Positions 686 to 23,271 of a DNA stretch of 24,822 nucleotides are shown in pieces. Numbering within the stretch: position 1 is the stretch's first letter; every line of letters starts with the position of its first letter. Origin of the DNA: a virus. Made by a program: the position numbers and the translations under genes. Below the pieces are notes generated by a model. The model saw only the letters and a list, made by a program, of their open reading frames with translations. It was not told the DNA's origin and made no database searches. The DNA is taken from positions 1-24,822 of the IMG/VR virus record IMGVR_UViG_3300027491_000015, one strand, 5' to 3'.

Positions 686-2181
686 AGTCTGAAGCCTTTC
701 TGCTCATTCTTGGGTAGGACAACATGCAGTGTTTGCTTGGCGCGGGTGATGCCCACGTACAGCAGACGGTTGATGTCGTCGGAGTTCTTGTCGTAGTCCT
801 TGGCAAACTTGGTGGACAGGTCCGTGAGCAGCAGTACGTTGTCCGCCTCCCCGCCCTTGGCGCCGTGGATGGTGGACAGTTTGATGGGCACGTGGCCCGT
901 GAGCCGTGTGTTGCGGCGCAGGAGCGAGATGAGGTAGTCACGACGCTCTTCGCTGATCTTGGTCAGTGCCTTGTGCCAGATTTCTGTGGAAAGAAGTCCG
1001 TGCTTTTCTTTCAGCAGGTCGAGCGTATAGCTGATGGTTGTGTCGGCCGTGCGCAGCATCTTGTGGCCGTGCTTGATGAAGCTGCTGTCCAGGTACTTGT
1101 AGATGTGCTTGACGACCGGGTATGGCACATCACCGCCCTTGCGCAGCTTCTCCCAGCCCAGGACGGCCATCAACACGGCTTCGCTGACGCTGCGCTGTCC
1201 GTGACGCTCGAACAGCAGGCCTTGGCTTTTGATCCAGTCGTGCATGTCGGTGAGCATGTAATTGGTGCTGGCCAGGATGAGCCAGTTGCCGTGCGTGATG
1301 TCGACCTGCTGGAAGTCGTTGTAGTAGTTGATGCTGCCCGTCTCTTCGCGCGCCTTCCAGACCTTGGGCTGGCGGTGCTTGATGCGGGTGACTATGCGGT
1401 TGGCTAGGGCGTGGATTTTGGCGGGGACTCGGTAGGATTGCTCAAGGACTTTGACATCACCCGTAAACCCCAGGAAGCTGCCGACGTCTGCTCCGGCCCA
1501 GGTGTAGACAGCCTGGTCGTCGTCGCCTGCCAAAAAGCAGCGCTGGGCTCGCAACGCGAGTTGCTCGACCAGCCTCCATTGCAAACGTGAGAGGTCCTGT
1601 GCCTCGTCAATGATCAGCACCTCCAGGTTGGGCAGGCGCCCGGGGTCCATCAGCACTTGCTCAAGCAGGTCCGTGAAGTCCAGCAGGCTGCGGCTGGTCT
1701 TGTAGTGTCGGTATGCACGCTCGACGTATTCGAAGTGAAACCACTCGATCTCCATCTGCGACTGGTTGTAGTGGGTACGCAGGTCCAGGCCCTTGATCCG
1801 TGCAATGTTGATCTCGTTAAGGATCGGGTTGTCGGCCTTCACTGCAAACTCTTCCTCGCCGTTCTCAACAGCCAGCTCGATGCCGGCCTCCAGGGCGAAC
1901 TCTTTGTAGTGCTCGGGGGACATCATGTCTTTGGTGCTGATGCCAAGGCACCGGTAGGCCAGGCTGTGTAGCGTTCTGAACCAGGGGAAGTCCGTCTCGG
2001 GTTTGAGGTGCGGGAACTTCTGAATGGCCCGGTCGCGCGCTTCGGTGGCCGCCTTCTTGGTGAAGGCGAAGTAGCCGATCTTGGTAGGGTGGACCTGCTT
2101 TTCCAGCTCGATCTCAACGACACCCAACAGGAATGTCGTCTTGCCCGAGCCAGGAGGTCCGAAGACTTTTGTAATATTCAC
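682..2181 (-). CDS. UvrD/Rep-family superfamily 1 DNA helicase
   Basis: This 499-residue ATP-dependent helicase probably unwinds duplex DNA at the phage fork or during recombination. The motifs appear in order: Walker A GPPGSGKTT (residues 8-16), a motif Ia region near TKKAA, Walker B IIDEAQD (about 190-196), motif III AGDDDQAVY (218-226), motif IV QSYR (about 248-251), motif V STIHGAKGGE (about 436-445) and motif VI VGITRAK (about 476-482). It is shorter than bacterial UvrD (about 720 aa), as is common in phages. The start chosen is a GTG that overlaps the upstream TGA as GTGA and has GGAGAG seven bases before it. ATGs at 2196 and 2211 would add 5 or 10 residues but have poorer ribosome-binding sites. 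It sits between the primase and polymerase genes. Confidence 0.92.
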   Translation of the reverse strand: MNITKVFGPPGSGKTTFLLGVVEIELEKQVHPTKIGYFAFTKKAATEARDRAIQKFPHLKPETDFPWFRTLHSLAYRCLGISTKDMMSPEHYKEFALEAGIELAVENGEEEFAVKADNPILNEINIARIKGLDLRTHYNQSQMEIEWFHFEYVERAYRHYKTSRSLLDFTDLLEQVLMDPGRLPNLEVLIIDEAQDLSRLQWRLVEQLALRAQRCFLAGDDDQAVYTWAGADVGSFLGFTGDVKVLEQSYRVPAKIHALANRIVTRIKHRQPKVWKAREETGSINYYNDFQQVDITHGNWLILASTNYMLTDMHDWIKSQGLLFERHGQRSVSEAVLMAVLGWEKLRKGGDVPYPVVKHIYKYLDSSFIKHGHKMLRTADTTISYTLDLLKEKHGLLSTEIWHKALTKISEERRDYLISLLRRNTRLTGHVPIKLSTIHGAKGGEADNVLLLTDLSTKFAKDYDKNSDDINRLLYVGITRAKQTLHVVLPKNEQKGFRL

Positions 2182-2420
2182 TCTTCTGCTCTCCATTCGT
2201 CCTGGGTCCATACCAGCACAGGCGTGCCGTCCCCCACATAGGCGCCTTCGATGTTGAACTCGATGAACTCGCGCGCTTGCTCGGCAGTCATGCCATCGCG
2301 CTTTATCAGGTTCTCGCGAATCTTTTCAGCGTCGTACACCAAAATGTCGCAGAGGCCATTGTTTCGCCAGACCATCGCAGGGCCAATGATTGCGTTGTCG
2401 TGATCGTCAATTTTTAACAT
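2178..2420 (-). CDS. Small acidic protein of unknown function
   Basis: An 80-residue protein that I do not recognise. It is acidic and looks globular, with a central helix-like segment (DAEKIRENLIKRDGMTAEQA) and a hydrophobic C-terminal part (GTPVLVWTQDEW). There is no signal peptide, membrane segment or cysteine pair. Its ATG shares one base with the stop of the primase gene (TGATG) and its TGA overlaps the helicase start, so it is inserted seamlessly into the replication operon. GAGGAG lies nine bases before the ATG. Coupled expression with the primase and helicase suggests a replication accessory role, but this is inferred from position only. Confidence 0.7.
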   Translation of the reverse strand: MLKIDDHDNAIIGPAMVWRNNGLCDILVYDAEKIRENLIKRDGMTAEQAREFIEFNIEGAYVGDGTPVLVWTQDEWRAEE

Positions 2421-3952
2421 CAGAAGGGACTCCTCTGGGTGCGTTGTTCTGGGGTGTCGAAAGGTGCGTCTTGGCGGCTGAACCGGGGGATGCGCCAGCA
2501 GCGTGCCGCTCGGTTCTTCAAGAAGAGGCTTATGGGTTCTCCGCCCAAGTCACGAATGCGCTGGGCCATCTTGGGGGCGGTCATGCCCTTGAAGTTGTTG
2601 CGTGCCAGGTGCGCTTCCAGGTCCTTCATGCGGAAGTAAGTCTTGGCCTCGTCCTCATCCGTCCAGGGGCGGCCCATGAGGATTTCGTCACGGTCCATTG
2701 CTTGCTGCAGGTGCGTGCAAAACTCTTCGAGCAGATCGTTGAAACGGCCGGTGATGCTGGTGTCTTCGCTGGCTTCGGTGATTTGCTCTGTCTCTACCAT
2801 TTCCTTGAGCAGCGCATTGAGCAATTGCTCCCAGTCTTGCTTGCGCAATGTGGGCGGCAGCAGATTGAGCTTCTCAACACAGGCCTTTTGGAATGCAGCC
2901 TGGGCAAAGAGGCTCTCAGTATCAAGCTCGATGCGTTTGCCGTTGATGTCGAGGAACCACAGCGGCGGTTCGCTGTTGTACTTGGACAGTGACGACATCT
3001 GCGGCGCATCTGGCCCGTGGGCCCCGATCCCGTGTTTGCGGGTCCTGCACAGCCCGCTGTTGCAAAAGCTGTTGAGCGGCGCGTCCTTGCACTTGTAGCG
3101 GTAGTCTTTCTTGTGCAGCTGCTTGATGATGATTTGCAGCTCGTTGTTAGGCAGTGGCGGGGCCACGTACTTGAAGTTGTGCTCGGACAGTGCGTTGTCC
3201 CAGTTCACCGGGTGCACCTTCTTGAGGTAGATGCCGATGTTAAAGAGAGCATTGTTCCGTGTGCCTTCTGGCACGCCTTGGGAGCACAGGGCTTGCAGAC
3301 AGGGTGGGCCGTCCTTGATTGGATGGTCTGGCTGCTTGGGCTCCTCTGGAAACTTGAGCTCTGTGGGCTGCACCCACTGGTCGTACAGGCCATAGAACTC
3401 TTCCAGCGTTGCTGCCGTGCCATCGTCCTTGATGGCATAGCGCATTGTCTGGTCACCACCGAAGTACGGCAGATTGAGGAAGTTGCCCGTGTCGCCACGG
3501 TCAACCAGGATTTCAGCTTGCTTGGGAAATATCTCTCGGCCGGCTTCGCCCAGGAGGGCTGCACCGGCCTTGAGAAACCGCTGCATTTCAGCGGCGGGGA
3601 TGGGTTCTTTGACAAACAGGAAGACGTGCGCGCCACCTGACTTGCTGCGACACACGACCATTGGCAGCTCAAGGCTGCGCACTTTCTTTATGAGGCCCGT
3701 GTGGTCCAGTGGATACTGGTCAATGTCAATACAGCCCCAGATGCAGGTGTTATCCGCCCGGATCGGGATAATTCCCAGACTCGGCTCAGCACCTTCCAGG
3801 TGTTTGACCCACAGGTCGTCAGTCGGTGGCTTGCGCACCACGACGGCCTTACCTGCCTGCTTTCCGTCCCCTCGTGAGGATTCGATTTTGTATGTTCCAT
3901 AGGCGATGTCCAGGCCGGAAAAGATCGCTTTGAACCTGGTGATGTCGGTCAT
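2420..3952 (-). CDS. Archaeo-eukaryotic-type (AEP) DNA primase, TOTE-like
   Basis: A 510-residue primase that would make the primers for the phage polymerase. The N-terminal half has the AEP signature: CIDID with D76 and D78 (metal binding), SKSGGAH with H109, then EIFPKQ (140-145) and GNFLNLPYF (156-164). These resemble the primase domain found in TOTE conflict systems. A second domain follows (about 216-310) with GPPCLQ, EGTRNNALFNIG and cysteines C218, C223, C288, C297 and C302, resembling a primase C-terminal domain. Four of these cysteines could bind a metal or Fe-S cluster. The last 190 residues are not recognised. The start is an ATG with a weak AAGAAGAA site. The gene is followed by a small ORF, the helicase and the polymerase. 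No DnaG- or T7-like primase is visible in the window. Confidence 0.82.
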   Translation of the reverse strand: MTDITRFKAIFSGLDIAYGTYKIESSRGDGKQAGKAVVVRKPPTDDLWVKHLEGAEPSLGIIPIRADNTCIWGCIDIDQYPLDHTGLIKKVRSLELPMVVCRSKSGGAHVFLFVKEPIPAAEMQRFLKAGAALLGEAGREIFPKQAEILVDRGDTGNFLNLPYFGGDQTMRYAIKDDGTAATLEEFYGLYDQWVQPTELKFPEEPKQPDHPIKDGPPCLQALCSQGVPEGTRNNALFNIGIYLKKVHPVNWDNALSEHNFKYVAPPLPNNELQIIIKQLHKKDYRYKCKDAPLNSFCNSGLCRTRKHGIGAHGPDAPQMSSLSKYNSEPPLWFLDINGKRIELDTESLFAQAAFQKACVEKLNLLPPTLRKQDWEQLLNALLKEMVETEQITEASEDTSITGRFNDLLEEFCTHLQQAMDRDEILMGRPWTDEDEAKTYFRMKDLEAHLARNNFKGMTAPKMAQRIRDLGGEPISLFLKNRAARCWRIPRFSRQDAPFDTPEQRTQRSPF

Positions 3953-4862: not shown

Positions 4863-5417
4863 TTACTTGGTTTTGATGATTGCTTTTTGGCCAATGAATA
4901 CGCCAAATAGCTCGGTATCGACGGTTTGACCCTTTTCGATACGCTCTTTCACCCAGGCCTTGAGGGTCTGGGGCTCGATCTTCTCGGTTTGCTCGGCAGG
5001 GTAGCCTTGCTGGCCCAGAAGCTGGAGGAGGCGTGAGCACAATTCGTCCTCGTTACGGCCGAATCGCACGCTCACGGTGTTTTTGATGATGTCGTCAAAG
5101 CCGTTGTCGCGTAGCCATTGGTACGCTTCCGCCTGACGGGCCTTTGGAATGCTCGCTCCGTAGAACGGCTTGATGTCAATGCTGCTGCCATCTTCCATGA
5201 CGAACTTCTTCATCCCTGATTCGGCCATGGCCTCGGGGATGGTCTGCTCGGTGAGCTTGCGGTACTGGTCAGATTTCTCTGCCACAGTGCGCTCCAGGTC
5301 TTCCAGCTCTTTTTCCAAGAGCTTGGCACGCTTGGCAAGGCCCGCGATGCCTGAAACCTGGTCATCGGACACCTTGAGGGCGCCCGCGTCATCTTCAAAT
5401 AAAGTCGTAAGAGTCAT
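4863..5417 (-). CDS. Early protein with N-terminal coiled coil, unknown function
   Basis: A 184-residue protein. Residues about 25-55 (LAKRAKLLEKELEDLERTVA) are a strong coiled-coil candidate. Next comes a beta-type segment (KKFVMEDGSSIDIKPFYGAS) and a helical C-terminal half. I do not know its function; similar proteins occur in phage replication regions, and the coiled coil suggests that it oligomerises. The chosen ATG has AGGAG at ideal distance within AGAAAGGAGAAAT. An in-frame start 54 bases upstream lacks a comparable site and would extend the overlap with the preceding gene. The gene overlaps the preceding gene by 23 bases and ends 16 bases before the SSB candidate. Confidence 0.72.
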   Translation of the reverse strand: MTLTTLFEDDAGALKVSDDQVSGIAGLAKRAKLLEKELEDLERTVAEKSDQYRKLTEQTIPEAMAESGMKKFVMEDGSSIDIKPFYGASIPKARQAEAYQWLRDNGFDDIIKNTVSVRFGRNEDELCSRLLQLLGQQGYPAEQTEKIEPQTLKAWVKERIEKGQTVDTELFGVFIGQKAIIKTK

Positions 5418-5739
5418 CGATTTCTCCTTTCTTGAAAAGATCAACCTCCAGGGGGATGTAGCGTCTCTCACGCTTGTCCCACTTGAGGCACTTGAAGCGG
5501 CCGTTGTTTTTCGCGGCTGCTACTGCACAGGTAATACCTATTGCAGAGGGGTCACCAATGAGAAGCAAGAAGTCCTCATCGGTAAATTTTTCCAGCTTGC
5601 GCTGGATTCGGCGTACCGTAGGTACAACTGAGAAAGCGATTTGGGCATTGGGCGGCAGAATGGTTTCAATCTGGCCGTAGTCCAGGGCGCTTGCAATGTT
5701 GTGCTGGGTAGTCTCCGAGACGACGTAGACTTTAGGCAC
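5395..5739 (-). CDS. First early leftward gene, unknown function
   Basis: A 114-residue protein starting with GTG, eight bases after AGGAG in the sequence AGAAAGGAGAAAT. That same 13-mer precedes the next gene. It has a short hydrophobic core (EDFLLLIGDPSAIGITCAVAAA), probably a buried strand-helix unit and not a membrane span, since it carries charged neighbours and a GDPSA turn. I do not recognise a family. It is the promoter-proximal gene of the leftward replication block, just downstream of the predicted divergent promoter. This suggests early expression and a possible regulatory or host-interaction role. Confidence 0.7.
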   Translation of the reverse strand: MPKVYVVSETTQHNIASALDYGQIETILPPNAQIAFSVVPTVRRIQRKLEKFTDEDFLLLIGDPSAIGITCAVAAAKNNGRFKCLKWDKRERRYIPLEVDLFKKGEIDDSYDFI

Positions 5740-5770
5740 GTGAATTTCTCCTTTCTGAATTCGAGCGACC

Positions 5771-5780
5771 AGTGTACACT
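5771..5780. promoter_or_regulatory. Perfect 10-bp palindrome AGTGTACACT, possible operator
   Basis: The palindrome sits in the only divergent intergenic region of the window. It contains TACACT on both strands, so the predicted leftward -10 overlaps a possible rightward -10 (5775-5780). The rightward -35 (TTTCTG, 5752-5757, spacing 17) is weak. A dimeric regulator bound here could control both directions, but no repressor gene is visible in the window. Confidence 0.4.
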
Positions 5781-5800
5781 ATCTTTTCAGGGCATTGCAA
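5771..5800 (-). promoter_or_regulatory. Predicted sigma70-type leftward early promoter
   Basis: On the minus strand, TTGCAA (5795-5800) and TACACT (5771-5776) are separated by 18 bases, matching a -35/-10 pair at four of six positions each. The expected RNA start would lie about 25 bases before the GTG of the first leftward gene, leaving room for its strong ribosome-binding site. Activity is predicted, not shown. Confidence 0.5.
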
Positions 5801-5824
5801 CCCCCTGCAAGAAAGAGAGAACAC

Positions 5825-7276
5825 ATGGATCAATTCCTATCGACCTACCCCTTCAAGAACAAGCCTTTCCTTCACCAGCAGGCTTACCTTCAGCGCTTCT
5901 GGGAAGACCCAGTAGCAGCGCTCTTTGCCGATATGGGCACAGGCAAGAGCTTCATGCTGATCAACAACGCGGCCATGCTCTACGACAAGGGCAAGATCAA
6001 TGGGCTGCTGATCGTAGCGCCCAAGGGGGTGTATCGTAACTGGTACGACACCGAAATCCCTAAGCATTTACCCGAGCATATCGTCTACCGCATGGCCATC
6101 TGGTCCGCCAGCCCACGCAAAGCCGAGCAGCGGGCGATGGACGAGCTGTTCACCGTCACAGAGGACCTCAAAATCCTGGTGATGAACATCGAGGCCTTTA
6201 GCACTGCCAAGGGCACTGCGTACGCCAAGCGTTTCCTGCTGGTGCACAACGCGATGATGGCTATCGACGAGAGCACCACCATCAAGACGCCCACGTCCAC
6301 CCGCAGCAAAAACACCGAGAAGGTGGGCCGTGGTGCGCGGTTCAGGCGGATCATGACGGGCTCCCCGGTCACGAAGAGCCCGATGGACCTATACCAGCAG
6401 TGCGCTTTCCTCTCAGATGGCTGTCTGAACACCAGCAGCTACTACGTTTTCCAGGCGCGTTACGCTGTGACAGTGGAGCGCCAGCTCAACACCCACAGCT
6501 TCAAGCAGATCGTTGGATATAGGCGCCTGGACGAGCTCAAGGAAAAGCTCGACCGCTTCGCGTTTCGCGTGAAGAAGGAGGAGTGCCTGGACCTGCCCGA
6601 CAAGCTCTACGTCAAGCGCGAGGTGGACCTCACTGACGAGCAAACCAAGGCGTACAACGAGATGAAGACGCTGGCCCTGGCGCAGATTCAAGGCGGCCTG
6701 GTAAGCACGGTCAACGCCCTCACGCAAATCATGCGCATGCACCAGATCGTCTGTGGCCACGTGAAGATGGACGACGGCACTGTCATGGAGCTGCCTAACA
6801 ACCGCATCAAAGAGTTGCTCAATGTGATCGAGGAGACGGATGGCAAGATCATCATCTGGGCCAACTACCGGCACGACATCGAAGCGATCAAGCTCGCCCT
6901 GTCAAAAGAATACGGCATGAATGCAATTGGCACGTATTACGGAGACACTGATGGCGATGAGCGCAAGCGGGTGCTGGAGGAGTTTCAGAAGCCTGACAGC
7001 GAGATGCGCTTTTTTGTCGGAAACCCCAGCACGGGAGGTTACGGCCTGACGCTCACAGCGGCGGCCACAATGGTCTACTACAGCAACAGCTTTGACCTGG
7101 AAAAGCGGCTGCAGTCCGAGGACCGTGCACACCGCATCGGCCAGACAAAGAACGTCACCTACATCGACCTAATTGCGCCTGGCACGGTGGACGAAAAGAT
7201 CGTCAAGGCGCTGCGCGACAAGATTGACATTGCAACCCAAGTTCTTGGAGAGGACCTCAAACAATGGCTCATCTGA
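5825..7276 (+). CDS. SNF2-type superfamily 2 helicase/translocase
   Basis: A 483-residue DNA-dependent ATPase. Residues 37-42 (MGTGKS) are Walker A, LLIVAPKGVYRNW (61-73) is motif Ia, AIDEST (146-151) is the DEAH-like motif II, and MTGSPVTKSP is motif III. Motif V is around STGGYGLTLT, and motif VI is QSEDRAHRIGQ (430-440), which is diagnostic of the SNF2/RapA group. No extra DNA-binding domain is evident, so it is near the minimal two-lobe core. The start is the ATG after AAGAAAGAGAG; a TTG 30 bases upstream is a weaker option. Its stop overlaps the nuclease gene by 13 bases. It probably translocates on duplex DNA, feeding the nuclease or remodelling recombination intermediates. Confidence 0.92.
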   Translation: MDQFLSTYPFKNKPFLHQQAYLQRFWEDPVAALFADMGTGKSFMLINNAAMLYDKGKINGLLIVAPKGVYRNWYDTEIPKHLPEHIVYRMAIWSASPRKAEQRAMDELFTVTEDLKILVMNIEAFSTAKGTAYAKRFLLVHNAMMAIDESTTIKTPTSTRSKNTEKVGRGARFRRIMTGSPVTKSPMDLYQQCAFLSDGCLNTSSYYVFQARYAVTVERQLNTHSFKQIVGYRRLDELKEKLDRFAFRVKKEECLDLPDKLYVKREVDLTDEQTKAYNEMKTLALAQIQGGLVSTVNALTQIMRMHQIVCGHVKMDDGTVMELPNNRIKELLNVIEETDGKIIIWANYRHDIEAIKLALSKEYGMNAIGTYYGDTDGDERKRVLEEFQKPDSEMRFFVGNPSTGGYGLTLTAAATMVYYSNSFDLEKRLQSEDRAHRIGQTKNVTYIDLIAPGTVDEKIVKALRDKIDIATQVLGEDLKQWLI

Positions 7277-7953
7277 TCCCCTGGTCGTACCAATTCGGGT
7301 ACAAAAAACTTGAAAGAGTAGACACGTCGTCAGGACGTGTCTACAAAACCGAGGATTCTGTACATGTCCCGTCGGTGACAACCATCCTGGACAAGACCAA
7401 GGACAAGGACTTTCTGAACTCCTGGGTGGCGCGCGTCGGGCAGGCAGAGGCGGATCGGATCAAGAACCAGGCGGCCTACATTGGCACGAACATGCATGCA
7501 ACGCTGGAATGCATCTTGACAGGCGAGCCAATGAAGTTTGGTACGGACTGGCAGGCCATGAAAGGACACAAAATGGCCTTTACCCTGGCCGATGCGTACT
7601 TCAGGCAGCTCACCGTGATCTACGGCTCAGAGGTGAGCCTGTCTTACAAGGACCGCTACGCCGGCACGACTGACCTGGTGGCAGAGTACCGTGGGCGCCT
7701 GGCAATTGTCGACTTCAAGCAGTCAATCCGGGCCAAAAAACACGAGTACATCACCGATTATTTCCACCAATTGGCGGCCTATGCGATTGCCCACGACGAG
7801 ATGTACGGGACGAACATCGACTATGCCGCAGTGCTGATCTCCGTACAGGACGGCACGACCCAGGAGTTCACCACCACCGGCCGAGAATTTCAGGGATTCA
7901 AGGACCAGTGGATGGAGCGGGTTGAGACTTACTCCAAGTTGCGCAGCTTGTAG
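7264..7953 (+). CDS. PD-(D/E)XK nuclease (RecB/Cas4/lambda-exonuclease-like)
   Basis: A 229-residue metal-dependent nuclease. The motifs are GTNMH with H78, GTTD with D137, IVDFK with D150 and K152, and HQLAAYA with Q169. Together they form the H-D-DxK-Q pattern of the RecB/Cas4 and phage exonuclease group. There are no Fe-S cysteines, so it is closer to recombination exonucleases (including the MGME1 type) than to Cas4. The ATG lies inside the end of the helicase gene, preceded by GGAGAGG, so the two proteins are probably made together and may act as a helicase-nuclease pair in end resection, recombination or host DNA breakdown. The catalytic residues look intact. Substrate polarity cannot be read from sequence. 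Confidence 0.88.
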   Translation: MAHLIPWSYQFGYKKLERVDTSSGRVYKTEDSVHVPSVTTILDKTKDKDFLNSWVARVGQAEADRIKNQAAYIGTNMHATLECILTGEPMKFGTDWQAMKGHKMAFTLADAYFRQLTVIYGSEVSLSYKDRYAGTTDLVAEYRGRLAIVDFKQSIRAKKHEYITDYFHQLAAYAIAHDEMYGTNIDYAAVLISVQDGTTQEFTTTGREFQGFKDQWMERVETYSKLRSL

Positions 7954-11293: not shown

Positions 11294-13363
11294 TCACTGC
11301 TGCGGCGCTTTCACCCGTTTCAGCTGATTTCCCTGCCAGAGTATTTCAGTGCCTGCCGCGTACCTGCGAGCTTCGGCTTCAGTGTACACAGCAGGTGGCA
11401 ATCCAAGCTCAGCGTAAATCTTACGGTAGTTCATTGCACGCTGTCGAGCCTCGGTACGCTGATCAGCAGTCAACTTCGGCCGCCCCTGGGTGCCATCAGA
11501 CAGTGCCTGCTGGTCCATTTCCTTGATGCCCTCTAGCAGCGACGTGCCAAGTGCAATCAAGCGCGTACCGTAGACGTCCGGATCGGTGAAGACGGAAGGC
11601 TTGATGTTGATTACGCCCGCAAGGCGCTCCTGCTCCTTCACGCTGCCTGCGGTGCTCTTTAACAGAGCCTCAATCAGGCGCTCGGCCTTGAGTTCGGCGT
11701 TCTGACGAGCCAGCGTGAGCTCTGCCATCGGATCACCAAGACCGGGGATTTTGGAGAATGTTGCAAGGCCCGCTGCCACGGGACCCGCAACATTAAAGCG
11801 GTCCTTCCACAACGATGTGTCAGCAGTAGCGGGGGCCCGACCCTGTTGAGGAACCACGGCGCCACCTTCTGCCGGTGCAGCACCAGGGGCACCAGGGGCA
11901 CCAGGGGCAGAACTTGTCGTACCCGCCGTCGGGGCACTTTCCACGCGAACAGCAGAACCACTGGGGGCCAAGGACGGCGTTGGCGCCACGGTGAATCCGC
12001 CCTTCTTACGGGCTGCTTCAGCGTCATTCACAAAGGCCGGAAGCGTGGGGACAATCTGCACGGTGTACGGCATCTTGCTGTCCGGATCAATCCGAGTCTC
12101 GGTGCGGGGCGTCCTGAGCTTTGTGATGGCCGACGAGATTAGATTGGTCTCAACGTCATTGGTTTTGCCATCGGCATAACGAGACATCATGTTGGGCATG
12201 TTGACGATATTCCACTCCCAATCGCCTTTGCCAAAGATCGACGAGCCAAGGCCCTTGATCTTCTCGGCCTGCATGCGAGCATCAGCCTTCAGAACTTCCT
12301 TGAAGAGGTCAGTTTTGCGCTTGAGCAGCTCAGTATTCTGAGCCACAACCTGGTCAATATCCTTCTCACCCTGTTGGAGTGCCAACGCCTTGATCTGGCG
12401 GTCAATTTTGTCCATCGACTCAATGTGGCGACCCATTGCAGTGGGGAGTGTCTTGACGGCCCCGGCAAGACGGGATGCAAAGCCGCCACGCAGGCGTCTT
12501 CCGCCCTCATCGGTGTTGGCTGCAAATCCAAACGCACGCTGACCCAACTCAAACAGCATCTGAGCCTCTGCCATGCCCTTGTCCGCTCCCATGAGCTTTT
12601 GGTACTCAGGAAGACGGCTTTGCACCCTGGATTCAAGGGTGGGGACGGCGGTAGGTTGCTGCGAGATCAGACTTGAGACGTTCGCTTTTGCTGCATTAAC
12701 CAGTTCTGGCGAATACGCCAGCAAAGGACCCTCTGAAGCGGTTTGATCTGTGGCAGGGGTCACGCCGCTTTCATCGGACCCTACCTGAAAATGTTGGACG
12801 TACCCGCCACGGGCCATGGCCACGGGGGGTTGATCAGACGGAGGCATCCCACCAGGAGCAGCACCAGGAGCGCCGCCGCCCATGCCAGCCATCAATGAGG
12901 CAATGCCGCCATCTGCGGGAGGCGGGGGAGCGCCACCGCCTCCAGGCATGGGAGGCATGCCTGGGGGAGGAGCACCGGGTGCAGCACCAGGGGCGCCGCC
13001 AGGGGCAGCACCCATCATCGGGGGCTGTGGTCCTTGGGCCATGGGCTGTGATTGGGGCAGCGCGCCAATGCCGCCACCGCCTTGCTGTGCAAGGATCGGC
13101 TGCAACATCGCCAGCACTTGCTCAGGCGTCTCGGTTGCGGCCTTGTATCCAACGAGGTCAGCCAGTTCGTCGCGACGAGCGTCGAGAGAACGCATGTCGC
13201 CCCGCAAGTTGTTCATGAGGATTTCAGGCGAATTGGGACGACGTTCCATCATGGTTTCTTCGTCATCGTCGCCCTCATCGTCGCCCTCATCGGCCATGGA
13301 ATCCATGAATCCTTGCATGATCCCGATGTTTTCGACGTCGTCGTCCATTATCTTATTTTTCAT
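11294..13363 (-). CDS. Virion protein with acidic N-terminus and Pro/Gly-rich linkers
   Basis: A 689-residue protein, probably structural. The N-terminus has an acidic stretch (DEGDDEGDDDEE, about 25-36). A helical segment is followed by a long Pro/Gly/Met/Ala-rich linker (about 94-178), then the motif MARGGYVQHF (183-192). Next comes a helical domain with several charged coiled-coil-like stretches, a second APGAPGAPGAAP linker, and a helical C-terminal domain. No enzyme motif was seen. The start is the ATG at 13363, with GAGG five bases upstream; a GTG two codons earlier is too close to this site. I infer an internal or tail-associated virion protein from its position and from the MARGG-type motif, which recurs in the neighbouring large protein. 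Confidence 0.6.
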   Translation of the reverse strand: MKNKIMDDDVENIGIMQGFMDSMADEGDDEGDDDEETMMERRPNSPEILMNNLRGDMRSLDARRDELADLVGYKAATETPEQVLAMLQPILAQQGGGGIGALPQSQPMAQGPQPPMMGAAPGGAPGAAPGAPPPGMPPMPGGGGAPPPPADGGIASLMAGMGGGAPGAAPGGMPPSDQPPVAMARGGYVQHFQVGSDESGVTPATDQTASEGPLLAYSPELVNAAKANVSSLISQQPTAVPTLESRVQSRLPEYQKLMGADKGMAEAQMLFELGQRAFGFAANTDEGGRRLRGGFASRLAGAVKTLPTAMGRHIESMDKIDRQIKALALQQGEKDIDQVVAQNTELLKRKTDLFKEVLKADARMQAEKIKGLGSSIFGKGDWEWNIVNMPNMMSRYADGKTNDVETNLISSAITKLRTPRTETRIDPDSKMPYTVQIVPTLPAFVNDAEAARKKGGFTVAPTPSLAPSGSAVRVESAPTAGTTSSAPGAPGAPGAAPAEGGAVVPQQGRAPATADTSLWKDRFNVAGPVAAGLATFSKIPGLGDPMAELTLARQNAELKAERLIEALLKSTAGSVKEQERLAGVINIKPSVFTDPDVYGTRLIALGTSLLEGIKEMDQQALSDGTQGRPKLTADQRTEARQRAMNYRKIYAELGLPPAVYTEAEARRYAAGTEILWQGNQLKRVKAPQQ
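11881..11907. repeat. Three 9-bp tandem repeats (CACCAGGGG)
   Basis: Three perfect copies on the plus strand encode the Ala-Pro-Gly repeats of the second linker of the overlapping virion protein. This is an in-frame low-complexity repeat that could change length without frameshift. Confidence 0.8.
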
Positions 13364-13372
13364 AGCCACCTC

Positions 13373-14470
13373 TTAGAAAAGGCCCGTACGACCTGTCGAC
13401 CCGCCCATTTTTTGCATGGGGCTATTTTGCTGCATGTTCTGCTGCTGCATTGGTTGCTGCATGTTCTGCTGCTGCATTGGTTGCTGCATGTTCTGCTGCT
13501 GCATTGGTTGCTGCATGTTCTGCTGCTGCATTGGTTGCTGCATGTTCTGCTGCTGCATCGGTTGAGCTTGTTGCGGAGCTTGCTGCTGCATGGGGCCGGC
13601 CATGGGCCGGGAATACGGGTTGAACGGCTGGGCCTGTTGCATCGGTTGCTGTTGCATGGGAGCCATTCCAAGGCCAGACTGACCATACTGAGCCTGTTGT
13701 TGCATCGGCTGCATTGGCTGATTCTTCATTGCCATGTCCTGCATCTGACTCTGCAAAGCCTTCATTTGTTCATACTGAGGAGCTTGTTGCTGATACTGGT
13801 CTAATTGTTGAGTTAAAGCGTTAGCCTGCTGCTGCAACTGGGGGCTCCAGGGGTTTTGTTGAAATTGCTGCTGCATTGCCTGCAACTGCGAGTACAGAGG
13901 GGAACCCTGAACGTAGTCCTGCATTTGCTGGCCCAATGCCTGGCTTTGGCTTTGAAGGCCTTGAAACTCGGGGCTTGTCATCCATGCGGGAGGCTGGGGC
14001 TGGGGCCCCATAGCCGGCAAGCCCAGTTGATTCATCATGCCTGGGGGTATGCCACCAGGAACAGGGCCCGTCATGGGGCCTGCTTGGCCCAATTGACCTT
14101 GAGGGCCCAATGGACCTTGAGGGCCCAATTGACCTTGAGGGCCCCCACTTAGTGCTGCTTGCTGCGCAAGCATCTGCTGCATAGATGCTGCACCAAGAGT
14201 GCCGAGGCCGCCAGGCATGCCCTGAGGGCCACCGAGTTGACCTTGAGGGCCGCCAGGCGTAGGCCCAATGCCGAGTTGACCCATTTTCTGGGCCATTAAG
14301 GCTTGTTGAAGGGCGCTAGGAGAAGGGTTTGCCTGTGTGGGAGGCGGCAGGTTGCGCAAATACGGATTGGCCATCGCGGGCGCCTGTGGCCGCTGCAGCG
14401 GAGCAGGCGCCCGAGGGGGAGGCGGCATCGGGGCCGGACGATTTTTATTGAACTTGCTGACGAGTGCCAT
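13373..14470 (-). CDS. Met/Gln/Pro-rich repeat protein of the virion block
   Basis: A 365-residue protein with almost no ordinary globular composition. The N-terminus is Pro-rich and basic. Residues about 75-140 hold Gly-Pro-Gln units (GPQGQLGPQGPL), superficially collagen-like. The middle is Gln-rich and probably helical, with phage-type segments such as MTSPEFQGLQSQ. The C-terminus carries five copies of the 9-residue unit MQQQNMQQP and ends GRTGLF. The neighbouring 579-aa protein also ends in GLF. The ATG has AAGGGA upstream and the gene is only nine bases from its downstream neighbour. I infer a flexible virion or scaffold-like protein from context; no enzymatic role is suggested. Confidence 0.6.
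   Translation of the reverse strand: MALVSKFNKNRPAPMPPPPRAPAPLQRPQAPAMANPYLRNLPPPTQANPSPSALQQALMAQKMGQLGIGPTPGGPQGQLGGPQGMPGGLGTLGAASMQQMLAQQAALSGGPQGQLGPQGPLGPQGQLGQAGPMTGPVPGGIPPGMMNQLGLPAMGPQPQPPAWMTSPEFQGLQSQSQALGQQMQDYVQGSPLYSQLQAMQQQFQQNPWSPQLQQQANALTQQLDQYQQQAPQYEQMKALQSQMQDMAMKNQPMQPMQQQAQYGQSGLGMAPMQQQPMQQAQPFNPYSRPMAGPMQQQAPQQAQPMQQQNMQQPMQQQNMQQPMQQQNMQQPMQQQNMQQPMQQQNMQQNSPMQKMGGSTGRTGLF
13427..13561. repeat. Five 27-bp tandem repeats (minisatellite) inside a gene
   Basis: Copies start at 13427, 13454, 13481, 13508 and 13535. The first four are identical and the fifth differs by a single T-to-C change near its end. Each copy encodes nine residues, so copy-number changes keep the frame. 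Near-identity suggests recent amplification by slippage or recombination. Confidence 0.95.
14086..14139. repeat. Three 18-bp tandem repeats encoding GPQGxL units
   Basis: The plus-strand unit is GGCCCAATTGACCTTGAG. Copies 1 and 3 are identical, and copy 2 has one A-to-G-type difference that changes Gln to Pro. A degenerate relative lies near 14221-14260. The repeat encodes the Gly-Pro-Gln segment of the overlapping protein. Confidence 0.85.
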
Positions 14471-14484
14471 GATCTAGTGTCCCT

Positions 14485-16224
14485 TCAGAATAATCCGGCT
14501 TTTTTGGCACCTGCGGCCGTTGATACGGCCCCAAGACCCACGCCCACTGCCTGTTGGAATGGGCTTGCTGATGGCTGGCTGGACGCCGCCGTGGACATTT
14601 GCGAGGACGGTGCGCCCTTGTAGATGTCGGACAAGAATCCTGCCTGCTGATACGGCGCATACACCTTTTGCAACTCGTTTGCGCGCTGTGCGTCCAGGGT
14701 CTGCTGGTTGAACGCCTGTTGCGACTGGCCGACGTTGTACAGGAAGTTGATGTCGCCCTGCTGCAAAGCCTGAGCCGTCTGGCCCAAAGCCCCTTGCTGC
14801 ACGCCCAGCTGTCCCAATTGACCACCAAGTTGGCCAAGGCCCTGCGCAGTTGCCTGCCCAATACCAAACTGCTGCCCCGCCAACTGACCAATGCCCTGAC
14901 CCAGTTGCTGATACTGCTGCCCTTGCTGGCCGTAAATGCCAGCGGCAGTTTGCGCAGCCTGGTTGCGAGCCTGCGACTGTTGCAGCATCAGGTTGGCAAT
15001 GTTTTGGTTGATGGCAGCCTCTTGGCCAGCCAATGCACCGCCTTGCGATGCCAAATTGCCATACTGTTGAGCCGCTTGCAGATATTGACCTGCTGCGCCC
15101 TGCCCCAACTGAGCCTGTTGTACGCCAAGCTGGCCAAGACCTTGGCCAGCCCCTACCTGGTTTTGCGCCAGGTTGCCATACAGGCCCGCTGCACCTTGAC
15201 CCAACTGAGCCTGTTGCGTTGCTTGTTGGCCGACGTTCTGGCCAGCTTGCATTTGTCGCTGCTGCTGCTGTTCAAAGGTGGCCATTGAATTGGCCTGAGC
15301 CTGGCTGTAGCCTTGCGCAAGAAGGTTGGCAATTGTGTTGGCTTTTTGATCCATCACATTACGGGCCATCTCAGCACGTTGAACACCCTCGCGTTCACCG
15401 CCAAAGGCGCCCGCTTTAACTGCTTGCGCAGCCTGACCTTGAGCAGCAATGTCCGCCTGTCGGTTAATCTGCTTCATCGTCTCGTCAATCACTTGTTGAC
15501 GATACGGGTTCATAAAGTCTTGAACCGAGGCAGGGTTGTATTGCTGCGATGCGTTAAGCATCAGCCCCTGCGAGCCACCATAATTGGCGGCACCCGACCC
15601 AAGCGCGAGTTGCTGTGCTTGAGTCAGCCCCCCGATGCCTTGAGCAATCGCTGCGGTTGCAGGCTGCAAGTTAGCCTGGCTCGACTGGGCGGCCATGTTT
15701 TGGGCCGTGGCCAGTGATCCGAGGCCCGTGGCCAGGTCTTGACGCGCCGCGCCAAACTGACCCGTGGTGTCAGATGCTGCCGCACGTCGTGCTGCCTCAT
15801 CCGCATACCCAAGACCTTGATTGATTTGGCCAATTCCGGATGTAATGTTTGCTGCCGCACCGCCAGCTTGCCCCATTGCCTTTTGAGCATCAGTAAACTG
15901 TTTTCGAGTGTCTGCCCCGCGCAGGATATCGGCAGCCTCACCCGTGGTGTCATACGCACTGCCCAATGCCTGATTGGCGGCGGTCATGTAGGGCGTAAAA
16001 GCCCCAATGCCCTGCGTTTCAGTTGCCTTAATTGCGGCCAATTGGGCAGGTGAAAACCCGGCCACCTGGTAGGTGGGAAGCTGCTGAGCTAGTGTCGTGG
16101 TGGGCTTGCCCGCTGCATCTACGTTGTAGGCAAGGTTTTGCGCCTGCTGAAGCAGTTTTAGCTTATAGGCTTCGATCTCCGGGGCTTCCCGGACTATCTG
16201 TTGGGTGACTGTTTCTTCTGCCAT
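14485..16224 (-). CDS. Gln/Ala/Gly-rich internal virion protein (AGAFGGER family)
   Basis: A 579-residue protein. Its centre has NPYRQQVIDETMKQINRQAD followed by AGAFGGEREG, a combination I associate with conserved virion proteins of many environmental tailed phages whose role is unknown. Both flanks are Gln/Ala/Gly-rich and predicted helical, with imperfect repeats such as VQQAQLGQGAAG. It has no membrane segment or cysteine pattern. Its C-terminus (AKKAGLF) ends in the same GLF as the next gene's product. The ATG follows AAGGGG, and the gaps to both neighbours are only about ten bases. Likely a helical internal or tail-channel component. The family link is from memory, not from a search. 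Confidence 0.62.
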   Translation of the reverse strand: MAEETVTQQIVREAPEIEAYKLKLLQQAQNLAYNVDAAGKPTTTLAQQLPTYQVAGFSPAQLAAIKATETQGIGAFTPYMTAANQALGSAYDTTGEAADILRGADTRKQFTDAQKAMGQAGGAAANITSGIGQINQGLGYADEAARRAAASDTTGQFGAARQDLATGLGSLATAQNMAAQSSQANLQPATAAIAQGIGGLTQAQQLALGSGAANYGGSQGLMLNASQQYNPASVQDFMNPYRQQVIDETMKQINRQADIAAQGQAAQAVKAGAFGGEREGVQRAEMARNVMDQKANTIANLLAQGYSQAQANSMATFEQQQQRQMQAGQNVGQQATQQAQLGQGAAGLYGNLAQNQVGAGQGLGQLGVQQAQLGQGAAGQYLQAAQQYGNLASQGGALAGQEAAINQNIANLMLQQSQARNQAAQTAAGIYGQQGQQYQQLGQGIGQLAGQQFGIGQATAQGLGQLGGQLGQLGVQQGALGQTAQALQQGDINFLYNVGQSQQAFNQQTLDAQRANELQKVYAPYQQAGFLSDIYKGAPSSQMSTAASSQPSASPFQQAVGVGLGAVSTAAGAKKAGLF

Positions 16225-22112: not shown

Positions 22113-22271
22113 TCAACCCTTTGCAGCGCGCATGTTGTCGATAAGGTTGGGGTATGGACGGCCGGCTTTCTTGGCCGCACTCTTGGCGGCGGCCTTTTTT
22201 GCAGGGGTCAATGCCTTGGGCTTGCCCAAACTTTTGGGTCGTTTTTTGTCCCAAATAGGTGTGTTTTTCAT
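22113..22271 (-). CDS. 52-aa lysine/alanine-rich small protein
   Basis: A small gene between the lysozyme and the gp10-like gene. The product is strongly basic: MKNTPIWDKKRPKSLGKPKA, a run of Lys/Ala (KKAAAKSAAKKAG), then RPYPNLIDNMRAA. The ATG overlaps the lysozyme stop as ATGA and has AGGAGA upstream. The stop is one base before the next ATG. This exact fit between two genes, with good ribosome-binding sites on both sides, supports real coding. I recall similar RPYPNLxDN mini-proteins in environmental phages. A nucleic-acid-binding or virion-packed role is suggested by charge only. Confidence 0.72.
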   Translation of the reverse strand: MKNTPIWDKKRPKSLGKPKALTPAKKAAAKSAAKKAGRPYPNLIDNMRAAKG

Positions 22272-22759
22272 GGGTTCTCCTGTGCCAAAAACAGCGCTCG
22301 TTCGCCCCTTCGGCGACGATCCAGCCCTGGCAGTACTTTACCTCCAGCCTTGTTCCACAGCAAGAGCGATTCAGCAGCTTCCTGCCATTCCTGCCGCTGG
22401 ATTTTCATCCGGACCGTGGACCGCTGGAAATTTCCCAGCCCTACATTGAAGCTGAAAGAGACGCAAGCGTCGAATTTGTTTTGACGACCAGCAAGATTAG
22501 GAGCAAGTCGCAGTACACCGAGCTCAAAGCTCGCAAGGTCTTTTGCCAGAATTGCATCCACTTCCTCCATTGTCAGCGTTCTGTCCCAGCCGGCGGGGAT
22601 CGGCAAATTTTTCCGCTCCTGCATCGGCACTTTAATGTGGCTTTGGTCAATCACATGCCCCACCCCTACCGTCCACAGCAATGCCGGGCACCGGTAGGGC
22701 CTGACCCGCACGCCCTCGTCGTGCTTGATCATCTGAATGGCACGGTCAGAGGTCTTCAT
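22268..22759 (-). CDS. Endolysin, T4-type lysozyme (GH24)
   Basis: A 163-residue muramidase that cleaves the glycan strands of peptidoglycan at lysis. The triad spacing E-8-C-5-T is present as E15, C24 and T30 in HDEGVRVRPY, followed by RCPALLWTVGVGH. It thus uses Cys where T4 lysozyme has Asp, as in P1 Lyz. A substrate-lobe segment FDACVSFSFNVGLGNF follows. The N-terminus has no signal peptide or signal-anchor segment, so export should need the holin encoded just upstream. The ATG overlaps the holin stop as ATGA; an in-frame ATG 72 bases upstream would overlap the holin extensively and is rejected. Length fits the family. Confidence 0.92.
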   Translation of the reverse strand: MKTSDRAIQMIKHDEGVRVRPYRCPALLWTVGVGHVIDQSHIKVPMQERKNLPIPAGWDRTLTMEEVDAILAKDLASFELGVLRLAPNLAGRQNKFDACVSFSFNVGLGNFQRSTVRMKIQRQEWQEAAESLLLWNKAGGKVLPGLDRRRRGERALFLAQENP

Positions 22760-23271
22760 TTCCCAAACGCCCGCCCGCCAAAATGGAAGGCAATGATGCT
22801 GGCAAATAACGCCTGGGTCTCGTTGTCCCACAACTGCTCCGCCAGGGTGGTGAAGTCAATATTGGTCCGAATGCCATGCCATACCAGGGCGCAGTCAATG
22901 CCCACCAACAGAAAAAAGAAACCATAAGTAATAACCGGGCGCACGCTTGCCCGCAGGTTCTTCATCCACTGACTGGTGCCCTCGTTGAGGGACATATCAT
23001 GGGCATAGATGGCCTGCATTTCGGCTTGCTGGGCTTGGACCAGCGTCTGTTGGACCTGCATTTCGGCATTGGCCTGCACCTGGTCCAGCCGGATTTCCTC
23101 TACTCGGGCCTGGGCCGCGTAGCCCTTTTCAAGCATCTGTAGCTCGCGTTCGGTCTGCAACCGCGCCAGGTCAAGCTCATGGCGCTTGTCGGATTTGTCC
23201 TGGAAAAAGTCCAACAACTTGGGCAGACCGCCCATGAGGAAGGAGATGAGTGTGGATAGTAGTGTTAGCAT
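22756..23271 (-). CDS. Holin-like membrane protein (GTA-type 3TM holin family, tentative)
   Basis: A 171-residue protein. It has a hydrophobic N-terminal helix (MLTLLSTLISFLMGGLPKLL). A charged coiled coil follows (about residues 25-85, with many Gln/Glu/Arg). Then come RASVRPVITYGFFFLLVG, which starts the main transmembrane segment, and a C-terminal hydrophobic ALFASIIAFHFGGRAFGK. The order of N-terminal helix, coiled coil, arginine-proline, membrane segment and Gly-Arg end resembles the 3TM holins of gene-transfer agents. It directly precedes and overlaps the lysozyme gene, the usual holin position. It should time membrane permeabilisation so that the lysozyme reaches the cell wall. The TAATG junction couples it to the gene before. 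Confidence 0.78.
   Translation of the reverse strand: MLTLLSTLISFLMGGLPKLLDFFQDKSDKRHELDLARLQTERELQMLEKGYAAQARVEEIRLDQVQANAEMQVQQTLVQAQQAEMQAIYAHDMSLNEGTSQWMKNLRASVRPVITYGFFFLLVGIDCALVWHGIRTNIDFTTLAEQLWDNETQALFASIIAFHFGGRAFGK

Follow-up and report, generated by a model that had tools for sequence, protein, structure and literature searches.

The question raised by this locus is whether a perfect palindrome, lying in a short gap between divergent genes, serves as two overlapping promoters or as the binding site of a regulator. The window, i.e. the whole stretch of DNA that was analyzed, is a 24.8-kb virus record (24,822 nucleotides) with a G+C content of 57%. The gap at 5740-5824 (85 bp) was the single divergent gap found in it, and rightward reading was limited to 5825-7953. 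A leftward replication operon lies on one side of the gap, and a rightward SNF2-type helicase and PD-(D/E)XK nuclease on the other, as follows:

5395-5739, minus strand: first leftward gene, 114 aa, Pam3 gp32-like (PF23992), GTG start
5748-5756, minus strand: AGAAAGGAG, ribosome-binding site of the leftward gene
5810-5815, plus strand: AGAAAG, ribosome-binding context of the helicase gene
5825-7276, plus strand: first rightward gene, SNF2-type helicase, 483 aa, ATG start
7264-7953, plus strand: second rightward gene, PD-(D/E)XK nuclease

The leftward block comprises Pam3 gp32-, gp33- and gp34-like proteins, a primase, a small unknown protein and a UvrD-type helicase, and its last frame, which carries a DNA polymerase A-type 3'-5' exonuclease domain, continues past the window edge. 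After the rightward helicase and nuclease, leftward genes resume, including a tape-measure-like one. The first-pass annotation had called the gap the only divergent one in the window, which stood: four other plus-strand ORFs (143-622, 13052-13804, 14599-15288 and 22259-22927) were considered as rightward genes and rejected, as each covers a leftward frame and none matches a Pfam family. At two of the four places it is the opposing frame that has a Pfam match, an exonuclease domain (2-685) and a lysozyme (22268-22831).

The nearest annotated record was the lake phage DSL-LC04, in which the arrangement and the 10-mer AGTGTACACT are identical to those of the window, and which is predicted to be virulent in passages of PMC10611076. 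Its helicase start is annotated at record position 35080 (L001 13822), and the protein match to the window helicase starts at 34993 with a GTG; the true start probably lies 29 codons upstream of the annotated one, and with the GTG at 34993 the gap would be 83 bp. DSL-LC04 has 85 annotated features, and of the 80 gene starts that were checked, 13 have AGAAAG in the 25 nt before them, compared with an expectation of 0.8; several cases of this recurrent ribosome-binding context lie within the replication block. At 2178-2420 (minus strand), the window encodes a protein of 79-80 aa at the place of the DSL-LC04 "sigma-G factor" annotation; no Pfam match was found for it and its only PHROG is of unknown function, and the annotation appears unsupported. 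The lysozyme at 22268-22831 (minus strand) is a phage lysozyme (PF00959), and DSL-LC04 has a peptidase M15A-like protein near the same place, so that a swap of the lysis enzyme between relatives is possible.

The self-complementary stretch with TACACT on both strands, reported by the first-pass annotation, was located at ten positions in the gap, with the following elements:

5771-5780, both strands: palindrome AGTGTACACT, two sigma70-type -10 hexamers (TACACT) whose overlap is a common TA
5775-5780, plus strand: rightward -10 TACACT; T5775, A5776 and T5780 with 0 parsimony changes in 102 gaps
5771-5776, minus strand: leftward -10 TACACT; A5771 different only in L187 and L188

The 10-mer equals its own reverse complement and occurs exactly once in the window. 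Allowing two mismatches or fewer gave 3 sites there, compared with 6.4 expected by chance, and the 10-mer is therefore not a dispersed repeat. A gap of 85 bp would contain some perfect 10-nt palindrome by chance with an estimated probability of about 7% (76/1024). The palindrome is nevertheless above chance because it is kept in relatives, the exact form in 63 of 102 related gaps and another palindrome, AGTATATACT, in 6 more. Among 14 related records, the exact 10-mer occurred once each in 10, the remaining 4 carried the one-mismatch form AGTGTAGACT, and the site sat in the gap in all 14 (hand arithmetic from contig coordinates).

The relatives were collected by IMG/VR scans with the helicase proteins and the 114-aa protein, from which the best 80 of 223, the best 80 of 204, the best 80 of 343 and the best 80 of 151 were kept; a further IMG/VR scan found 43 relatives, 42 of which were obtained. 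The 373 records gave 360 with usable upstream DNA (the window and named phage records included) and these gave 161 distinct gaps; many loci were the same contigs from several scans, and counts refer to distinct gap sequences. Fifty-seven of the 161 gaps, best matched by the 023Pt query, were set apart, and the 52 of them with at least 70% identity to the 023Pt_psg01 helicase formed the pelagiphage-type set, which is defined by match and not by host; the other 5 were left out. The remaining 104 gaps, minus two far relatives without the arrangement (L088 and L212), made up the 102 gaps of the DSL-LC04-type group. From these, 61 representatives were chosen at helicase-tree distances above 0.06, and parsimony changes were counted on the helicase tree, four helicase rows of which were short. 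The expectation that relatives conserve the palindrome held for the DSL-LC04-type group (63 of 102 exact) and failed for the more distant pelagiphage-type relatives (0 of 52).

Across the 102 distinct gaps among the loci kept, the parsimony changes at the ten core positions were 2, 4, 4, 2, 0, 0, 8, 3, 4 and 0, and those in the 23 flanking columns (offsets -14 to -1 and 10 to 18) were 9-32 each. Strong conservation was not special to the palindrome, because the ribosome-binding site of the left gene (offsets -25 to -15) was equally conserved, with 0-6 changes. The informative part is the pattern of change inside the palindrome, rather than conservation alone. The nearly invariant letters A1, T5, A6 and T10 are T-7, A-11 and T-12 of the -10 hexamer in each direction, so that these key positions of both strands fall in one common element, AnnnTAnnnT, which was present in 100 of the 102 gaps while the other positions varied. 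The overlapping leftward and rightward -10 elements of the first-pass annotation are well supported by this retention. The two exceptions, L187 and L188, have a shorter 8-nt palindrome, AGTATACT; with this core the predicted starts would be about 21 bp apart, and the plus strand forms no stem-loop. The variant AGTATATACT is nearer to TATAAT both ways and still palindromic; its 6 gaps all come from closely related loci, and the two-sided change may thus be a single event. TACACT itself matches TATAAT at only 4 of 6 positions, and 4 or 5 matches were kept in 101 of 102 gaps rightward and in 99 of 102 leftward, the lower ones being L368, L331, L187 and L188.

The same data bear on the idea, raised in the first-pass annotation, that a dimeric factor switches both genes, the palindrome being the operator of a phage or host regulator and its likeness to -10 elements secondary. 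A perfect dyad in 69 of the 102 gaps, altered in both arms in the 6 with AGTATATACT, would agree with an operator; its occurrence once per genome would be in line with a dedicated regulator, and a DSL-LC04 protein is annotated as a helix-turn-helix regulator. However, selection for the dyad itself was not found, as 33 of the 102 gaps have no exact dyad, and 31 of these 33 still fit TAnnnT on both strands, e.g. AGTGTAGACT (11 gaps), AGTGTACAAT (7) and ACTGTACACT (4). In a dimer operator, symmetry and specific letters should be retained, while the retention observed is that expected of a double -10 element, the invariant positions coinciding with those of the -10 element. A repeated operator was also rejected, since the 14 related records had 5 extra one-mismatch sites (in 3 records) against 14 for a reversed-pattern control. 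In addition, the pelagiphage-type relatives use another paired-promoter layout, the 10-mer being found in 0 of 52 gaps and any palindrome of the form AnnnTAnnnT in 3 of 52. The switch by a dimeric factor was not upheld, and we consider an operator improbable. A bidirectional promoter is favored over it because 31 of the 33 non-palindromic gaps keep the double -10 pattern, which suggests that the palindrome is kept since both directions need it.

The -35 elements, which help a bidirectional promoter but are not required by it, and the transcription starts that would accompany the two -10 hexamers were placed as follows:

5795-5800, minus strand: leftward -35 TTGCAA with an 18-bp spacer, within the loop of a stem-loop; CAA (plus strand) 16-19 bp away in all 61 representatives
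5752-5758, plus strand: weak rightward -35-like TTTCTGA, overlapping the ribosome-binding site of the left gene on the other strand
5787, plus strand: predicted rightward transcription start, 7 nt after the -10, from geometry by a rule given in passages of PMC12825309
5764, minus strand: predicted leftward transcription start, from geometry, 23 bp from the rightward one

For the 61 representatives at spacers of 16-18, the leftward -35 had a mean of 3.67 of 6 matches to TTGACA compared with 2.36 after shuffling, a value reached by 0 of 100 shuffled set means. The best leftward hexamer 16-18 bp away was TTGCAA in 28 and TTGACA in 6 of the 61, and TTGACA in 12 when 19 bp was allowed. The spacer to CAA was 16, 17, 18 and 19 bp in 7, 19, 29 and 6 of the 61 respectively, a count favored by picking the CAA nearest to the expected place. 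In the rightward direction the mean was 3.00 of 6 compared with 2.45 after shuffling, reached by 0 of 100 set means at spacers of 16-18 and by 1 of 100 at 16-19; this excess can be explained at least partly by the near-invariant CTTTCT, which doubles as the ribosome-binding site of the left gene. These comparisons suggest a complete promoter in the leftward direction and one with a weak -35 in the rightward direction. A scan of 5000-7000 on both strands for consensus promoters and terminators found none (1.1 promoters expected in shuffles). In the DSL-LC04 record, the gap upstream of the cement protein gene (3524-3654, L373) has a promoter-like TTGCAA-16-TATGCT on the minus strand, the -35 letters of which are identical to the TTGCAA of the leftward promoter.

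Since the -35 is clear in the leftward direction alone, it was considered whether only the leftward promoter is real, with the rightward half of the -10 kept for some other reason and the helicase transcribed from elsewhere, e.g. from inside the left gene. This is very improbable in our judgment: T-12, A-11 and T-7 of the rightward hexamer showed zero changes across the 102 gaps, the 5' arm of the stem-loop lies at a near-fixed distance from the rightward -10, and mapped promoters commonly have a poorly conserved -35 according to passages of PMC10268837. Promoters inside the left gene were covered by the consensus scan of 5000-7000.

Just past the predicted rightward start, an inverted repeat was present:

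5788-5807, plus strand: stem-loop CAGGG-N10-CCCTG at the predicted 5' end of the rightward transcript; arm-swap test 0/5000

The loop holds CAA, which belongs to the leftward -35 on the other strand. The arm-swap test was adopted since differences in loop length misalign the arms in an alignment, and it covered 60 of the 61 representatives (L331 is without AGAAAG). The phages' own arms gave a mean of -5.86 kcal/mol compared with -4.53 (sd 0.19) when arms were swapped between phages, with 0 of 5000 permutations reaching it; without the common CAGGG arm, the remaining 39 representatives gave -5.64 compared with -4.04 kcal/mol, again 0 of 5000. By these tests the base pairing was conserved through changes in both arms, the arm sequences being diverse yet complementary (CAGGG, CTTGG, AAGGG, CAGGT, CAGGC, TCGGT and ACGAGG). 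Perfect stems of at least 5 bp with the 5' arm at offset 16-21 were found in 53% of the 102 gaps compared with 7% of base-shuffled ones, and 29 of the 102 had no perfect stem of at least 4 bp near the predicted start. The 5' arm of the best stem began 17-18 nt from the palindrome start in 45 of the 61, i.e. 1-2 nt past the predicted start, a count favored by picking the best-scoring stem; the window's own best stem starts at offset 14, as it was lengthened across a mismatch, with CAGGG itself starting at 17.

Folded alone, the predicted 5' end of the window was no better than its shuffles (z 0.16). The mean folding z over the 61 representatives was modest, -1.14 on the plus and -1.26 on the minus strand, and the plus strand of L187, L188 and L371 folds into nothing. 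A search of 5600-5960 against Rfam gave a single match with an E value of 0.27, far under the gathering score. The excess in the arm-swap test was similar on both strands, and the non-Watson-Crick cells (2 G-T and 5 A-C) did not favor RNA of the plus strand. Both features would agree with an element at 5788-5807 that acts as DNA, either bound by a protein or structured as a single strand, instead of an mRNA hairpin. We hold such a DNA site to be rather unlikely, as the arms vary widely while staying complementary, unlike a sequence-specific operator, and their position coincides with the predicted 5' end of the transcript. The stem-loop is probably a 5'-terminal hairpin of the rightward mRNA, with a putative protective role.

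Considering both the -10 pattern and the elements around it, the gap is likely to be a bidirectional promoter of the host sigma70 type with a shared -10. Its two -10 hexamers would overlap head to head with TA common to both, and host RNA polymerase would bind in either orientation, never in both together. Leftward initiation at 5764, helped by the conserved TTG of the -35 (5795-5800), would produce the replication operon transcript, and rightward initiation at 5787, with its poor -35, the mRNA of the SNF2-type helicase and nuclease. This mRNA would start with the short stem-loop, in the loop of which the leftward -35 lies on the opposite strand, so that in the DSL-LC04-type group both -10 elements, one -35 and the hairpin would be nested in about 37 bp. 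The analysis shows the sequence and its conservation, a pattern of change like that of a -10 element on each strand, the leftward -35 with its spacing, and covariation in the stem; transcription from these sites, their mutual exclusion and the action of the stem-loop as RNA are what we infer from the sequence. The distant relative HTVC027P encodes no RNA polymerase and is said to depend on the host enzyme in passages of PMC12753301, which fits a sigma70-type promoter.

In the pelagiphage-type gaps a second geometry was revealed. TTGAC facing TGTCAA was present in 47 of the 52, with exactly 25 bp between them in 45 of the 47. Among these 45, TATATA lay 17 bp from the rightward TTGACA in 40, and the leftward TATATA was less regular, at 16 bp in 18. 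In HTVC027P, TTGACT-17-TATATA was recognized by eye in the rightward direction. The loci concerned are L084 and L087 (023Pt_psg01) and the pelagiphage-type ones among L213-L292, where 45 of the 52 distinct gaps upstream of the helicase have this rigid, putative inverted double promoter. The main text of the HTVC027P transcriptome paper, in the passages available, gives temporal classes and has no mention of promoter, helicase, gp87, gp86, gp01, gp02 or gp03 (PMC12753301), and promoters are not mentioned in the passages of the pelagiphage genome paper (PMC9599517). The 023Pt_psg01 type resembles the window in the identical divergent gene pair and in overlapping promoters that would exclude each other, and differs from it in its inverted TTGAC boxes 25 bp apart, its separate -10 elements and the lack of AGTGTACACT. 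Overlapping opposed promoters are thus predicted at this gene pair in both groups, with different layouts. A tentative extension, which we regard as possible though somewhat short of an even chance, is that one phage lineage evolved at least two geometries of overlapping promoters, the overlap itself being selected and polymerase competition fixing the ratio of the replication operon to the helicase-nuclease operon.

5'-terminal stem-loops are said to stabilise the ompA and papA mRNAs of E. coli. The phage stem-loop is similar to these hairpins in that a short stem is predicted no more than about 2 nt from the mRNA 5' end and upstream of the ribosome-binding site. It differs from them in its short stems (perfect over 4-7 bp) and in a loop that carries the -35 of the opposite promoter, and its stabilizing effect is putative.

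Bidirectional promoters have been recognized through start-site mapping and are described as widespread. In the bacterial ones studied by Warman, Grainger and co-workers, according to passages of PMC12825309, a -10 element is common to both directions, 18 bp is the most frequent spacing of the starts, 10 and 23 bp being frequent too, and the promoter cannot hold two opposing polymerases at the same time. The same passages report little competition at basal activity for five tested promoters, and competition that can arise once one direction is activated; given this, the polymerase competition raised in the first-pass annotation, which would follow from the overlap, is possible at the phage site and may matter only with one strong direction. 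The class is defined by divergent starts 7-25 bp apart, and the phage geometry predicts 23 bp. The phage site agrees with the bacterial promoters in its -10 shared by both strands, its predicted 23-bp start distance and its place between divergent genes. The phage hexamers share TA (T-12/A-11), whereas the known promoters have reciprocal -7/-11 with 18 bp as the commonest distance. Unlike them, the phage site is kept in a whole group of phages and has a covarying stem-loop overlapping it, and its starts are predicted only. No phage promoter of such layout was found among the open-licence papers listed, as judged by titles and abstract starts. The locus bears on whether the symmetry of bidirectional promoters is selected or an accident of the -10 sequence: in the 102 related gaps, the letters kept are the -10 key positions of both strands and not the dyad as such. 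It offers a compact natural system for testing promoter competition as a design feature. Judged by sequence, the site is consistent with a known class of promoter, the nested stem-loop being its unusual feature.
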